Assembly: GCA_022703335.1 (NCBI GenBank)
Contig: JAKLDV010000014.1
Location: forward strand, 1 to 34,446
DNA length: 34,446 nt
Origin: Elusimicrobiota bacterium
GTDB lineage: Bacteria > Elusimicrobiota > Elusimicrobia > FEN-1173
Direction: 5' to 3'
Both the position numbers and the translations under genes were made by a program. The notes beneath the pieces were generated by a model that was given only the letters and a program-made list of their open reading frames with translations, did not search any database and was not told where the DNA came from. This document shows positions 18,224-24,095 of this stretch, piece by piece; the stretch's first letter is position 1, and each line of letters starts with the position of its first letter.

Positions 18224-18293
18224 GATGCCGCGGGGTCGGTAGACGCCGCTGCCGATGCCGCGGGGTCGGTAGACGCCGCTGCCGATGCCGCCG
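18224..18293 (+). repeat. 30-bp tandem repeat, two exact copies and a degenerate third
   Basis: The unit begins GATGCCGCGGGGTCGG and ends GCCGCTGCC. Copies 18224-18253 and 18254-18283 are identical over all 30 bases; a third copy from 18284 diverges after about ten bases. A looser relative (GATGCCGCTAGGTATCG) starts at 18186. There are no spacers between copies, so this is not a CRISPR array. The whole 278-nt gap between the CoA-binding gene and the tRNA holds no convincing gene. Confidence 0.85.
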
Positions 18294-18412
18294 GGCGTTG
18301 CCTCCGGCTTGCGGAGAGTGGCAGACACAACGATACCGGTTTTTCTCAACACCGTGCCGCCCCGTTGCGCCGCCACGGGACAGGCAAGCGGCCCAGAGGG
18401 CCGACGACTCTT

Positions 18413-18485
<73 letters not shown>

Positions 18486-18532
18486 GATTTTTTCACATTT
18501 CGTCGCGGTCCTTCGCGACAAGGAGGATGAGG

Positions 18533-20113
18533 ATGAAACGACTCGCGCTGGCGCTGATGTTCTGCTTGGCCGGCTGCATCACGTTTCCGACGGATCCGCA
18601 ATCGGCGGTTCCGGAACCGGAACCGGCTTTCCTGACGGCCGACCGCGACGCGGCCCCGGTCTTGGTGAACCTGCTGGACGAGCGAAAGCTCGAAAGCCCC
18701 GTGGGCGCGGAGTTCAGTTCGACCATTCTGAAGGACATCGTTCGGCTGACCACGCCGACAGGATATCGTCTGAAGAACCGCTATCTCAAATTGGGGGTCC
18801 CGTTGGCGCAGGCGCTCTATTTCGCCAAGGACGCCCAGTTGCAGAACCGGCTTTTGGAGGCCGCCCGCTGGACCAGCAGCCCCCGGGCCCGTTCGGAAGC
18901 CCTCGTCGTGTTGGCCAAGCAGAGAAATCCGGAACATCTTAAATATTTCCGCGAAGCGCTGTTGGACAGCAACGTCGCCATCCAATTCGCCGCCATCGAG
19001 GCGCTTCAGGTCTGGGCGGGCGAAGGGGCCTCCGAACTTCTCCTAAGCGTGGCGAACCAGAATTGGTCTCCGGTCATCCGGGTGTACGCCGCCCAAGCCG
19101 CTCTGCGGCTGGGTTCTTCCGCCGGCCGGGACAAGCTCCTGGAGTTTTTGAGGGAGCGGAACTGGCTGATGCGGGCCATGGCGGCACGTTACCTGGGAGA
19201 CATGGGACGGCCGGAAGACGGGGATCTCCTGCTTTCGCGCATCGGGCCGGAACAGGACAACAAGTTCGTCCTGGCCGAGGTCTGCATCGCGGCGCTTAAG
19301 CTGACGGGCCGGCGGCTGCCGGCGTCGATGGCTCCTCCCCCGCCTCCGTCGCCGCGCGCGCCTCTGAAGCCCACTCGGCAGCCCTTCGAGTTGGAGCCTC
19401 TCGTCGTTACCGCGCCCCGCCTGAAACTCATGCAGCACGTGGACGTGCGCATCGACAACGACCTCGTGAGGCTTCTGGAAAAAATGGCTTCCGAACCGAT
19501 CGAAGTGGAAAAAGTCGTTGATCCCGACGTGGCTCAGCTTTCCCGCATCGAGACGCCGGTGGGATTCAGCCTGGCCGTGCGTTACAACGACCTCATTTTC
19601 CTCCTCATCGAAGGCCTGGCCGGTTCCCGCGACCTGGGGCTGGTTCGTCGTCTGGAGGAGATTGCCCGAAACAATTCCAACGCCAACGTCCGCGCCGCCG
19701 CCCTGGTGGCGCTGGGGTATGACCGCGACCGCACCGACTTGGCCATCTTTCAGGCGGCTCTGAGGGATGCCACCAACACCTCGGTCCGTTTCGCGGCGGT
19801 GGAGGCGTTGGGGCAGATCGGCGGTTCTCAGGTGATCGGGACCTTGGCGGACGTGGCCAACAGCGACCGGTCCCGCGCCGTGCAGATCTTCGCCGCGCAG
19901 GCGCTCCGCCGTTCCGGCGATCCCTACGGGCGCGAAATACTGTTGCGCGCTCTGGACGACGCCGATCCCTACGCCCGCGCCATGGCCACGTATTATCTGG
20001 GAGAAGTGGGCGAACCGGACGACTATAACCGCGTGCTCTTCCGGATGAACAACGAATCCAATAATTTCGCCGTGGCGGAGGCCTGCCTGGCTCTCTATCG
20101 GCTGTCGCCGTGA
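18533..20113 (+). CDS. HEAT-repeat lipoprotein with internal duplication and TonB-box-like linker
   Basis: 526-residue predicted lipoprotein. ATG 18533 is preferred over ATG 18527 because the AAGGAGG at 18520-18526 abuts the earlier one and sits six bases from the later. The signal sequence MKRLALALMFCLAGC ends in lipobox LAGC (C15); the next residue is Ile, favouring outer-membrane sorting. Two homologous halves (about 50-265 and 300-526) each hold HEAT-like repeats. TPTGYRLKNRY matches TPVGFSLAVRY, and KFVLAEVCIAALKLTG matches NFAVAEACLALYRLSP. Between them is a Pro-rich linker (APPPPPSPRAP) and then EPLVVTAPR at 288-296, which resembles a TonB box. TolQ, TolR and TonB follow 28 nt later. 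It is probably a scaffold or TonB partner; no enzyme motif is seen. Confidence 0.85.
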   Translation: MKRLALALMFCLAGCITFPTDPQSAVPEPEPAFLTADRDAAPVLVNLLDERKLESPVGAEFSSTILKDIVRLTTPTGYRLKNRYLKLGVPLAQALYFAKDAQLQNRLLEAARWTSSPRARSEALVVLAKQRNPEHLKYFREALLDSNVAIQFAAIEALQVWAGEGASELLLSVANQNWSPVIRVYAAQAALRLGSSAGRDKLLEFLRERNWLMRAMAARYLGDMGRPEDGDLLLSRIGPEQDNKFVLAEVCIAALKLTGRRLPASMAPPPPPSPRAPLKPTRQPFELEPLVVTAPRLKLMQHVDVRIDNDLVRLLEKMASEPIEVEKVVDPDVAQLSRIETPVGFSLAVRYNDLIFLLIEGLAGSRDLGLVRRLEEIARNNSNANVRAAALVALGYDRDRTDLAIFQAALRDATNTSVRFAAVEALGQIGGSQVIGTLADVANSDRSRAVQIFAAQALRRSGDPYGREILLRALDDADPYARAMATYYLGEVGEPDDYNRVLFRMNNESNNFAVAEACLALYRLSP

Positions 20114-20141
20114 ATTTGAACCTCGACTCAAAGGAGACATC

Positions 20142-20792
20142 ATGACTGAATTCGGAGCGTTGAAAGTTTTGGCGTATTCGGGTGGGGAGTGGGTCATCTA
20201 CCTCCTCCTCGCGTGCTCGATCCTGACGATCGCCGTCATCATCGAAAGGGCTTTGGTTTTGAGACGCGAACGGCGTCAACTGTGCGGTTTGGAAAAAGAA
20301 CTGGCGACCCTTCTGGAGAAGGGGAACCTGGAATCCGCCGCCAGCGTGTCGGCCGGCGCCCAGGGAGCCGCGGCCCGACTCCTCTCGTCGGGACTCGGCC
20401 ATCTCAAGGCCGGCCCCGCGGCCGTGGAGGAATACATCGCTTCGGCGAAGATCACCGAGAAACAGGCGATGGAACGGCGCCTGTTGATCCTGGGCAGTCT
20501 CGGCAACAACGCGCCGTTCATCGGTCTCTTCGGCACCGTGTTGGGCGTCATCAAGGCGTTCCACGACCTCGCCGAGACCGCCGGCGCCGGCCCGGAAGTG
20601 GTGATGCAGGGGCTTTCCGAGGCGCTCATCGCCACCGCGGTGGGCCTCCTGGTGGCCATCCCCGCGGTGATGGCGTACAACTATTTCCAGAAACGGGTGA
20701 ACGATTTCTTCGCCGACATCGAATCCCTCTCGAGGCTCCTCCTGGCGCGCCTGCGGGACGAATCGCCGTCCACCAAGTCCTCGGGCCGCTGA
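20142..20792 (+). CDS. MotA/TolQ/ExbB proton-channel protein
   Basis: 216-residue inner-membrane subunit that, with the ExbD/TolR partner, uses the proton gradient to drive TonB or TolA. One N-terminal membrane segment (about 13-33) is followed by a cytoplasmic part. The conserved pair of segments then appears: NNAPFIGLFGTVLGVIKAF and EALIATAVGLLVAIPAVMAYNYF, carrying the Thr and Ala positions typical of the family. The ribosome site AAAGGAG is strong. The gene is followed 3 nt later by the ExbD/TolR gene. I leave TolQ versus ExbB open: the TonB gene downstream favours an Exb-like role. Confidence 0.94.
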   Translation: MTEFGALKVLAYSGGEWVIYLLLACSILTIAVIIERALVLRRERRQLCGLEKELATLLEKGNLESAASVSAGAQGAAARLLSSGLGHLKAGPAAVEEYIASAKITEKQAMERRLLILGSLGNNAPFIGLFGTVLGVIKAFHDLAETAGAGPEVVMQGLSEALIATAVGLLVAIPAVMAYNYFQKRVNDFFADIESLSRLLLARLRDESPSTKSSGR

Positions 20793-20795
20793 CCC

Positions 20796-21203
20796 ATGGC
20801 CGGTCCTGCCGGGAATTCGGAAAACTCGCTCATCACAGGCATTAACATCACGCCCCTGGTGGACGTGGTGCTGGTGCTGCTCATCATCTTCATGGCCACG
20901 GCGCCGCTCCTCATGCGCCGCGCCCTGTCGGTGAACGTCCCCCGCGCCGCCCACAACGAACCCAAGGCCACCGCCACCCTCCAGATCCAGATGACGGCCG
21001 TCGGCGAGGTGTCCGTTGAAAAAAAGAAGTTGGACCTCGAACAGTTGGACCGGATGTTGCGCGAGCGGCTGCTGACCGACCCCGCCCTGCATGTTTCACT
21101 GGCCGCCGATAAGACCATCCCCTACGGCGAGGTGGTGGGGGTAATGGACGTGGTGCGCGGGGCCGGCGTCAAAAAATTGGCTTTGGAGGTGAAGTCAAAA
21201 TAG
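20796..21203 (+). CDS. ExbD/TolR-family proton-channel protein
   Basis: 135-residue single-span protein and partner of the preceding gene. The membrane segment INITPLVDVVLVLLIIFM carries the essential proton-carrying aspartate (D23). A short periplasmic domain follows, with VPRAAHNEPKA and a C-terminal VVGVMDVVRGAGVKKLAL strand-helix typical of ExbD/TolR. The length is normal. It is separated by 3 nt from the ExbB-like gene before it and by 4 nt from the TonB gene after it, so the three genes are almost certainly one transcript. Confidence 0.94.
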   Translation: MAGPAGNSENSLITGINITPLVDVVLVLLIIFMATAPLLMRRALSVNVPRAAHNEPKATATLQIQMTAVGEVSVEKKKLDLEQLDRMLRERLLTDPALHVSLAADKTIPYGEVVGVMDVVRGAGVKKLALEVKSK

Positions 21204-21207
21204 CGCC

Positions 21208-21915
21208 ATGCCCGCGATCCCCTTCGGCGCCTTTTTGAGACAGCATCGTCTTCCGCCGTTCGAAACGGCGTTGTTGGTGTCTTTTTTCCTGCATGTGGCC
21301 GCCTGGCAGGCGCTCACGTGGAAGGAGCGGTTTGTGCGCCAGGAAGAGGTGGACCGGCTGGAAATAGACCTCACGCGCCCGTTCCGCTTGACGGACAATC
21401 CTTTCCTGGCGCGCCGGGCCAAGGTGTCGGGGACCGGGGCGCCCATCGTGGAAAAACCCAAACCCGTGACCGCGCCGCCCGCGGGGGAAGTCAAACCGCC
21501 GAGCGAATGGGTCCTGCCCGGGCCGGACACGAAGGAGTTGGAAAAGCCGGTGACGGCCGAAGACCCGAGCGGGCTCGGCGGGTTCGGGGTGGGCGAGGGC
21601 GGCGGCGAAGTGGACTGGGTCTACCTCACCAGTCTGCCGCAGTTGTTGAACCGCGACGCGCTTTTGAGGAACCTGCGGCGGTATTATCCCGAATCGGAGC
21701 GCCGCGCCGGACGCGAGGGGCAGGTGGTGCTCGACCTGCACATCGACCGCCAGGGGAGCGTCACGGCCGTCGATGTGGTGACCTCCGCCGGGGCGGCGTT
21801 CGACGCCGCCGCCGAAAAGGTGATCCGCCTGGCCCGTTTTTCCCCGGCAAAAGTGGAAACCCGCGCGGTGCCGGTGAAGATCCGCCAGACCGTCGCTTTT
21901 CAACTGGAAGAGTAA
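21208..21915 (+). CDS. TonB-like energy transducer
   Basis: 235-residue protein with a cytoplasmic start, one membrane segment (about 19-36) and a periplasmic C-terminal domain. The membrane segment contains S25-x3-H29 (VSFFLHV), the same Ser/His spacing that is essential in E. coli TonB. The middle is Pro-rich (EKPKPVTAPPAGEVKPP) with a Gly-rich patch (GLGGFGVGEGGGEVDW). The TonB C-domain covers ~150-235: REGQVVLDLHIDRQGSVTAVDVV, AAAEKVIRLARFSPAK. It is shorter between domains than many TonBs. With the channel genes it should transmit energy to an outer-membrane partner. No TonB-dependent receptor lies in the window, but the HEAT lipoprotein upstream has a TonB-box-like motif. Confidence 0.92.
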   Translation: MPAIPFGAFLRQHRLPPFETALLVSFFLHVAAWQALTWKERFVRQEEVDRLEIDLTRPFRLTDNPFLARRAKVSGTGAPIVEKPKPVTAPPAGEVKPPSEWVLPGPDTKELEKPVTAEDPSGLGGFGVGEGGGEVDWVYLTSLPQLLNRDALLRNLRRYYPESERRAGREGQVVLDLHIDRQGSVTAVDVVTSAGAAFDAAAEKVIRLARFSPAKVETRAVPVKIRQTVAFQLEE

Positions 21916-21968: not shown

Positions 21969-22268
21969 ATGGCCGAGCGGCGCACGATAGAAATTTCCTG
22001 CCCCTGCTGTCAGGCGGTCCTCACGGTGGACGCCGAGACCGGCGATGTCTTGCTCCACAAGGAAGCCAAGAAAAAAGTGGAGATGGACATCGCCAAGGCG
22101 GCCCAGGCGTTGAAGGACGACGTGTCCCGCCGGGACGATATTTTCCGAAAATCCATCGAGGCGCAGAAAAGGAAAGGCGGCCGCCTGGACAAGCAGTTTG
22201 AAGAAGGCCTCCGGCGCGCCAAAGAGGAGCCGGAAACCCCGCGCCTCCGGGAGATAGACTTGGACTGA
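21969..22268 (+). CDS. Small CPCC zinc-ribbon-like protein of unknown function
   Basis: 99-residue soluble protein. The N-terminus has SCPCCQAVLTVDAETGDVLL, a CxCC knuckle followed by a beta hairpin typical of half a zinc ribbon; only one cysteine pair is present, so metal binding would need dimerisation or another partner. The rest is a highly charged helix (VEMDIAKAAQALKDDVSRRDDIFRKS) ending in acidic residues. There is no ribosome-binding sequence, and the leader is short. It sits between the TonB gene and parA with a 53-nt and an 81-nt gap. The 81-nt gap contains two T6 runs and a weak 4-bp hairpin. I do not know its role. Confidence 0.7.
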   Translation: MAERRTIEISCPCCQAVLTVDAETGDVLLHKEAKKKVEMDIAKAAQALKDDVSRRDDIFRKSIEAQKRKGGRLDKQFEEGLRRAKEEPETPRLREIDLD

Positions 22269-22349
22269 TTTTTTCGGCCTCCGCGAACGGAAGATTTTTT
22301 CCATCCGATCCGGCATTTCCACACGACACTGGACCCCGGGAGTTATCGA

Positions 22350-23177
22350 GTGGCACACATCATCGCAATCGCGAACCAAAAGGGAGGCGTCGGCAAGACG
22401 ACCACGGCGATCAACCTCGCCGCGTCCCTGGCGCATTACGGCCACGAGACGCTCCTGATCGACATGGATCCCCAGGCCAACCTGTCGTCGGGCTTGGGCC
22501 TGACGCACGATAAGGTGACCAAACACATCTACCACGTGCTTTTGCAGGACACCCCGCTGGAGGAGATTCTTCGCGAAACGGGCGTGGAGTGGCTGGACGT
22601 GGCGCCGTCCCACTTGGACCTCTACGGCGTGGAGGTGGAGTTGGTCAACGCCGAGCACCGGGAACGCCGCCTGCAGATGGCCCTGGAAAAATTCCAGAAG
22701 GCGTACAAGTTCATCTTCATCGACTGTCCGCCGGCGCTGAACCTCCTCACGCTCAACGCGCTGGTCTCGGCCGCCACCGTCCTCATCCCCATGCAGTGCG
22801 AATACTATGCCATGGAGGGGCTGTCCCTCCTCATTCAGACCATCGAGCGCGTGCGGGGAGGACTGAACCCGCGTTTGGAACTTGAGGGGGTGCTGATGAC
22901 CATGTACGATTCGCGGACCAACCTCGTCCAACAGGTGCATCAGGAGATCAAAAAGTTTTTCGGCAACAAGGCGTACAAGACGGTCATCCCCCGGAACATC
23001 CGCCTGGCCGAGGCCCCCAGTCACGGCCTGCCGGCGTTGGGCTACGACAAGCACTCCACCGGCGCGGAGGCGTACCTGGCTTTGGCGCGGGAGTTCCTCC
23101 GACGGCACGGCGCCGATGCGGAACACGTCGAGACCGCGTCCCCCGAACCCGTTTCGGCGGCGCCCGCCGGGGCCTGA
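22350..23177 (+). CDS. parA: ParA/Soj-family chromosome-partitioning ATPase
   Basis: Deviant-Walker ATPase that moves ParB-bound DNA. The 275-residue chain starts at a GTG (22350) with GGGAG eight bases upstream. It has the deviant Walker A KGGVGKTTTA with the signature lysine, Walker A' LLIDMDPQANLSSGLG, and Walker B FIFIDCPPALNLLT. There is no N-terminal helix-turn-helix, so it is the small chromosomal (Soj) type. ParB follows 21 nt later. Chromosomal parAB often sits near gidB and oriC, but neither is here. Confidence 0.96.
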   Translation: MAHIIAIANQKGGVGKTTTAINLAASLAHYGHETLLIDMDPQANLSSGLGLTHDKVTKHIYHVLLQDTPLEEILRETGVEWLDVAPSHLDLYGVEVELVNAEHRERRLQMALEKFQKAYKFIFIDCPPALNLLTLNALVSAATVLIPMQCEYYAMEGLSLLIQTIERVRGGLNPRLELEGVLMTMYDSRTNLVQQVHQEIKKFFGNKAYKTVIPRNIRLAEAPSHGLPALGYDKHSTGAEAYLALAREFLRRHGADAEHVETASPEPVSAAPAGA

Positions 23178-23198
23178 AGGTTTTTAAAAGGAGAACGC

Positions 23199-24095
23199 AT
23201 GGAACATAAACCGTTGGGACGTGGATTGGAAGCGCTCTTAAAACAAGGGACCTCGACGCTTTCCGCCGCGGACCGGGAGAGCGTCGCCAAGATCGCGGTG
23301 GACAAGATCCGCCCCAACCGCTACCAGCCGCGCGTCCATTTCTCTTCGGAATCCCTCCAGGACCTGTCCGCTTCCATCAAGGCCCACGGTTTGGCCCAGC
23401 CGCTGTTGGTGTCACCGTCGGCGGTGCCGGGCGAGTTCGAGCTGGTGGCCGGGGAGCGGAGGCTTCGCGCCTCCAAGATGGCGGGCCTATCCGAGGTTCC
23501 TTGCGTCGTCCGGGCGGTCAGCGAGCGGCAGAGACACGAGCTTTCCCTTGTCGAGAACATCCAACGGGAGGACCTCAACGCCGTTGAGGAGGCCGAGGCG
23601 CTGAAGAAGTTGATGTCCGAGTTTTCCCTCACGCAGGAGGAGGTGGCGCACGCCTTGGGCCGCAGTCGTTCGGCGGTGGCCAATAAATTGCGCCTTCTGG
23701 AGTTGCCGGAGGATATCCGGCAGGCCATCATGGTCGGCCAGCTTTCCGAAGGGCATGCGCGGACCCTGCTCGGCATCGAGGAACGAAGCCGCCAGACCGA
23801 ATTGAGCCGCCGTATCTTGCGCGAACACCTCACCGTGCGCGACGTCGAAAAAATCGTCGCTGATTGGCAGTCCGCGCACCACGAAGGCCGCGTCAAAACG
23901 ACGAAACGAAAAGACCCCGACGTCCGCCAGTTGGAGGAGGACCTGCAGAGAACGCTGGGCCGCAAGGTGGAGATACAGACCCGGGGCAAGAAGAAAGGGT
24001 GGCTCCGGCTCGCTTTCTATTCACTGGACGATCTGCAGCTGCTCATCCGCCACTTGAAGAAATCCAAAGACGGGCATTCCGGCCGCGGCGCATGA
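23199..24095 (+). CDS. parB: ParB/Spo0J-family partition protein
   Basis: CTP-dependent DNA clamp that loads at parS. The 298-residue chain has the N-terminal ParA-contact stretch (KPLGRGLEALL), the CTPase motifs GERRLRA and ENIQREDLN, a central helix-turn-helix (LTQEEVAHALGRSRSAVANKLRLLELP), and a C-terminal dimerisation region after a basic linker (KTTKRKDPDVRQLEEDLQ). Ribosome site AAGGAG is well placed. Its stop overlaps the start of the next gene by four bases (24092-24095). I found no complete parS palindrome in the window. Confidence 0.96.
   Translation: MEHKPLGRGLEALLKQGTSTLSAADRESVAKIAVDKIRPNRYQPRVHFSSESLQDLSASIKAHGLAQPLLVSPSAVPGEFELVAGERRLRASKMAGLSEVPCVVRAVSERQRHELSLVENIQREDLNAVEEAEALKKLMSEFSLTQEEVAHALGRSRSAVANKLRLLELPEDIRQAIMVGQLSEGHARTLLGIEERSRQTELSRRILREHLTVRDVEKIVADWQSAHHEGRVKTTKRKDPDVRQLEEDLQRTLGRKVEIQTRGKKKGWLRLAFYSLDDLQLLIRHLKKSKDGHSGRGA

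Follow-up and report, generated by a model that had tools for sequence, protein, structure and literature searches.

What does a TonB protein act on when the gene encoded ahead of its motor specifies a HEAT-repeat lipoprotein? This question is raised by a locus on a 34,446-nucleotide contig (C46) of an Elusimicrobiota bacterium, the whole of which was analysed and is called the window here; the host draft genome amounts to 2.66 Mb. To our knowledge, outer-membrane transporters are the resident proteins that TonB engages by way of a TonB box, and bacteriocins are the other carriers of such boxes. The initial annotation had suggested that this TonB acts on a lipid-anchored HEAT scaffold through a TonB-box-like motif, instead of on a receptor or as a bridge to one.

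Directly behind the HEAT gene, and at short spacing, lie exbB, exbD and tonB; the HEAT gene, these three genes and the features within them are all on the + strand. They encode an ExbB/TolQ-type motor subunit (20142–20792; PF01618, E = 9.7e-32), an ExbD/TolR-type motor subunit (20796–21203; PF02472, E = 3e-29) and a TonB (21208–21915; PF03544, E = 1.2e-18), and the ExbB, ExbD and TonB_C matches are all over the curated cut-offs. The transmembrane helix of the TonB carries the S-x3-H motif as SFFLH (21280–21294), and S-x3-H is found in every operon TonB examined. The C-terminal domain of the window TonB (21679–21906, the PF03544 region) is the predicted reader of the box. These matches bear out the earlier description of an S-x3-H TonB with ExbB/ExbD partners downstream of the HEAT gene. 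The best-scoring models for the ExbB- and ExbD-like subunits are TolQ and TolR, yet both subunits fall below the respective equivalog cut-offs (TIGR02796, 124.5 vs 221 bits; TIGR02801, 97.3 vs 127.3 bits), and the ExbB/ExbD equivalogs fail too. In a tree of TonB C-terminal domains, built on 93 columns and with many forks unresolved, the operon TonBs group with TonBs linked to TonB-dependent receptors (TBDRs), apart from TolA-like proteins and also away from a second, long TonB-like class.

The same tree places three receptor-adjacent TonBs, L175 (G012:C3:20862), L176 (G031:C4:744051) and L181 (G003:C65:735), inside the operon TonB group, which suggests, as far as the sequences tell, that copies of the operon-type TonB have been recruited to receptors. 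A second motor-like set is present in the host genome at G000:C225:24749-26894 (L077, L210, L211), consisting of a tandem pair of ExbD genes together with a long TonB_C protein (ORF of 676 aa; no obvious S-x3-H in the part read). Proteins of relatives that are akin to this long TonB_C protein make up a branch of their own.

The HEAT gene (18533–20113; Pfam HEAT_2, E = 5.7e-38) belongs to an ORF at 18527–20113 with two candidate start codons, ATG 18527 and ATG 18533, of which the latter is favoured by its better spacing from AGGAGG at 18521–18526. Residues are numbered from ATG 18527 below. A lipobox, LAGC (18566–18577), was read from the sequence behind the signal peptide, and most orthologues from families f1, f6, f9 and f13 have a cysteine at the same place. 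Since the residue directly after the lipobox cysteine is isoleucine, the lipoprotein would be sorted to the outer membrane, by analogy with the E. coli +2 rule. The description of the scaffold as lipid-anchored holds for some families and does not extend to all: most members of f5 carry a signal peptide but no lipobox, and split loci have the box on a separate secreted protein.

A Pfam search with the HEAT protein matched HEAT families only, and fold and sequence searches of the PDB returned only generic HEAT and alphaRep matches. The AlphaFold2 model of the fused protein consists of two confident all-helical solenoids, and no Plug or beta-barrel domain is present. The N-terminal solenoid (18626–19315, residues 34–263) is mostly at pLDDT >85, and the C-terminal one (19445–20104) covers residues 307–526. 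Between them lie a Pro-rich variable linker (19316–19390, residues 264–288; pLDDT <50 at 267–289) and the TonB-box-like motif LEPLVVTAPR (19391–19420, residues 289–298), within the peptide FELEPLVVTAPRLK. EPLVVTAPR, at residues 290–298 in this numbering, falls at 288–296 when counted from ATG 18533, so that its earlier placement behind a Pro-rich stretch and between two HEAT halves was right. Burial of the motif in a HEAT helix, which would have spoken against a TonB box, is not seen in the model, where the region 291–300 is mostly coil, outside every HEAT helix, with a mean pLDDT of 82. At this confidence the box may pack on the fused protein as modelled.

The motif is conserved far beyond its surroundings. 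Among 55 distinct orthologues, residues 289–298 have a mean pairwise identity of 0.76, compared with 14% in the preceding linker (266–285) and 48% in HEAT-C, as expected from the proposal that EPLVVTA is kept among homologues. Conservation is uneven within the segment: P291, L292 and R298 are nearly invariant, while at positions 293–294 V, I, T, L and F all occur. The flanking E-P-L and P-R are thus better conserved than the VVT core, whereas in receptor boxes local structure has been reported to matter more than individual side chains (PMC11658791); the segment may therefore also play a structural part. The invariant flanks and the pLDDT of about 82 at 291–300 in the fused model would also fit an explanation, in our view improbable, in which the conserved motif serves as a structural hinge holding the linker in place on HEAT-C, with a convergent resemblance to a TonB box and no binding by TonB.

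The specificity of the motif points away from such a hinge. A TonB-box profile was made from 23 TBDR boxes of the host genome and its relatives, delimited by hand. On this profile LEPLVVTAPRL scores 19.7 bits and ranks first of the 10,431 11-mers in the window's proteins, the next best outside the HEAT protein reaching 7.8 bits, and none of 400,000 random 11-mers attains 19.7 bits. The receptor boxes themselves, left out one at a time, score 4.6–27.3 bits, a range that includes the HEAT site. A DNA pattern for L[D/E]x-hydrophobic-[VIM][VIM]TAx[R/S] gave 27 matches over 60 genomes (18 in the HEAT family, 6 at TBDR N-termini and 3 others, two of which fall in ORFs 21 and 48 codons long), and a reversed-pattern control gave 2. 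This near confinement of a degenerate motif to the HEAT family and TBDR N-termini is hard to reconcile with a hinge. In some genomes the receptor and HEAT boxes are almost identical, as in G002, where the receptor box LEPLVITATR compares with LEPLVVTAPR in the HEAT protein. The motif is most likely a real TonB box, judging by these sequence comparisons. Chance occurrence, which had been allowed for on the grounds that the motif is short, is ruled out by the profile rank, the conservation in 55 orthologues and the specificity of the pattern.

Linkage to the motor genes was followed across relatives. A single-sequence scan of genome contigs with the HEAT protein found no relative, and an alignment query of the same contigs found 46 loci of the family. 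The relatives found in this way come nearly all from Elusimicrobia/Elusimicrobiota metagenome-assembled genomes; the eight remaining matches are HEAT proteins from other phyla, only distantly related. The family is present in families f1, f2, f5, f6, f9 and f13 of the class and was not found elsewhere in the phylum sample. Outside f6, exbB lies downstream of the HEAT gene in every informative locus, that is, every locus with enough downstream sequence, and exbD and tonB then follow almost always, the exceptions to the order being cut by contig ends. That the motif always adjoins tonB outside f6 is a further difficulty for a hinge. No flanking genes were found to be conserved across families, and the neighbourhood therefore offers no clue to function.

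The two halves are separate in most f9 members, with HEAT-N as a lipoprotein and HEAT-C as a secreted protein of its own. The box of the split HEAT-C lies just behind the signal peptide, near the mature N-terminus, which is its placement in TBDRs. In the split HEAT-C model, based on an alignment of only ten sequences, the first 46 residues, including the box, are at pLDDT <50; a motif modelled as a disordered N-terminal extension is not what would be expected of a hinge. Separate overlapping or adjacent genes for the two HEAT halves, which form one gene in other genomes (fission/fusion), are seen in many genomes, at L040-L050 and L134-L153, in f9 and relatives.

Family f6 provides the exception to the linkage, which stands for all informative loci outside this family. 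The HEAT gene has no adjacent motor genes in all three f6 members with enough flank, and ExbB matches elsewhere in f6 genomes are weaker or part of receptor-linked sets. The f6 orthologues (L060, L061 and L064) include one from Candidatus Obscuribacterium magneticum. In their boxes VPPR has replaced VTAPR at the core, giving EPLIIVPPR or close variants (the counterpart of the host peptide is ELEPLIIVPPRL), and they score at most 7.5 bits on the TBDR-box profile. Both BtuB and colicin M lose function on proline changes in their TonB boxes (PMC11658791). Retention of EPL..PPR without neighbouring motor genes would fit a hinge, but the core is degraded exactly in the clade that lacks these genes. 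Since f6 is one clade, the change in the box core and the absence of motor genes count as one event.

The receptors are the next point to consider. No Plug-domain gene is present within the window, as had been noted, but this absence carries no weight because the host genome has four TBDRs (Plug-domain genes), all on contigs other than the window. The TonB of the window is apparently the only canonical TonB of the host, to judge from the genome sequence, and for this reason it may serve both the HEAT protein and the four receptors. These counts, together with the box sequence common to the HEAT protein and receptors of the same genome, could be read to mean that the HEAT protein is an adaptor between TonB and TBDRs. 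We regard this as highly unlikely. The receptors have boxes of their own, the flanks of the loci examined yielded no recognisable receptor gene, and at least six high-quality genomes retain the unit without a detectable receptor. As scored on draft metagenome-assembled genomes, G008, G017, G034, G037, G040 and G050 (each ≥90% complete) keep the unit and have no Plug or receptor-barrel match, and the same is true of G036 (80% complete). Because the unit is kept in these genomes, a receptor is an unlikely partner for their TonB, and as a general role the earlier alternative of a bridge to a receptor is disfavoured.

The receptor-free genomes bear equally on a regulatory role, in which the HEAT protein would present a decoy box that occupies TonB and limits its access to receptors. 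Such a competitor needs only a box and co-expression, and both the box and the gene linkage are observed. There is nothing to limit in receptor-free genomes, yet box and motor are retained, and a decoy has no need for linked ExbB/ExbD; we find this role scarcely credible.

With a probability of about three in four, we propose that the four genes make up a Ton-type motor unit with a dedicated client that is no outer-membrane transporter but a HEAT-repeat protein of the periplasm. Comparative evidence lends strong support to the suggestion that TonB acts on the HEAT scaffold by way of a TonB box; this evidence comprises the conserved box, the linkage to exbBD-tonB, the near-identity to TBDR boxes and the retention of the unit in genomes without detectable TBDRs. 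TonB thus probably pulls on a non-transporter protein in this branch of the Elusimicrobiota. In the host, the HEAT protein would be lipid-anchored, probably to the outer membrane, and would display LEPLVVTAPR between its solenoids. By homology with receptor boxes, the box would be added as a beta strand to the TonB C-terminal domain, and the proton-driven ExbB/ExbD motor would then pull the HEAT-C solenoid off HEAT-N, or off an outer-membrane or cell-wall partner. This force step may be likened to TolA pulling TolB off Pal, and the HEAT protein is perhaps loaded by TonB as TolB is by TolA.

The proposed unit shares with the Ton system the three motor genes, the S-x3-H TonB, the TonB_C domain and a box that scores in the range of receptor boxes, but its co-encoded client is a HEAT solenoid protein without plug or barrel, and the genome may have no detectable receptors. 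Colicins B, M and Ia differ from the HEAT protein in that they are secreted toxins which enter cells, not resident envelope proteins, and have no HEAT repeats. Like it, they carry a TonB box without being receptors (PMC11658791). FecA/FpvA-type receptors have an internal TonB box beside an N-terminal periplasmic signalling domain (PMC11658791), and the HEAT box likewise lies between two domains, but these receptors are transporters with plug and barrel.

The Tol-Pal system resembles the unit in the TolQ/TolR-leaning scores of the motor subunits and in a periplasmic client that would be engaged via a short, possibly disordered segment; in Tol-Pal, strand augmentation joins the TolB N-terminus to TolA (PMC12905483). 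The unit differs in having no TolB propeller or Pal, and neither tolB nor pal was recognised in it. Replacement of Tol-Pal by the unit was considered and rejected for the host genome, which has a TolB_N match on another contig (C196). The TolA-like protein of the host also groups away from the window TonB. No TolB_N match was found in the f9 genera g20 and g31, possibly through divergence.

Searches of the open-access literature turned up no HEAT protein described as carrying a TonB box, and on sequence grounds the HEAT protein is apparently an unreported kind of client for Ton-type systems. Belief and doubt are evenly balanced on the broader claim that Ton and Tol-Pal are joined by a third trans-envelope system driven by protons, in which a dedicated TonB-ExbBD motor has a HEAT-lipoprotein load docked via a true TonB box and works in the cell envelope independently of nutrient uptake. 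A box-bearing HEAT protein that is encoded with a motor of its own and retained where receptors are not detected would mean that the Ton machine also drives processes other than receptor-mediated transport. It would further represent a present-day Ton-type system whose client resembles that of Tol, which bears on the origin of TolA/TolB from TonB.

Upstream of the HEAT gene, two copies of a direct repeat of ~30 bases (gatgccgcggggtcggtagacgccgctgcc) lie at 18224–18295, in the gap before a tRNA-Thr gene (18413–18485), and an Rfam search returned this upstream tRNA only. Downstream of tonB, at 21969–24095, are genes for a 99-aa protein with no Pfam/NCBIfam match and for ParA/ParB. The order tonB, 99-aa protein, ParA/ParB is also found in one other family member (L057).
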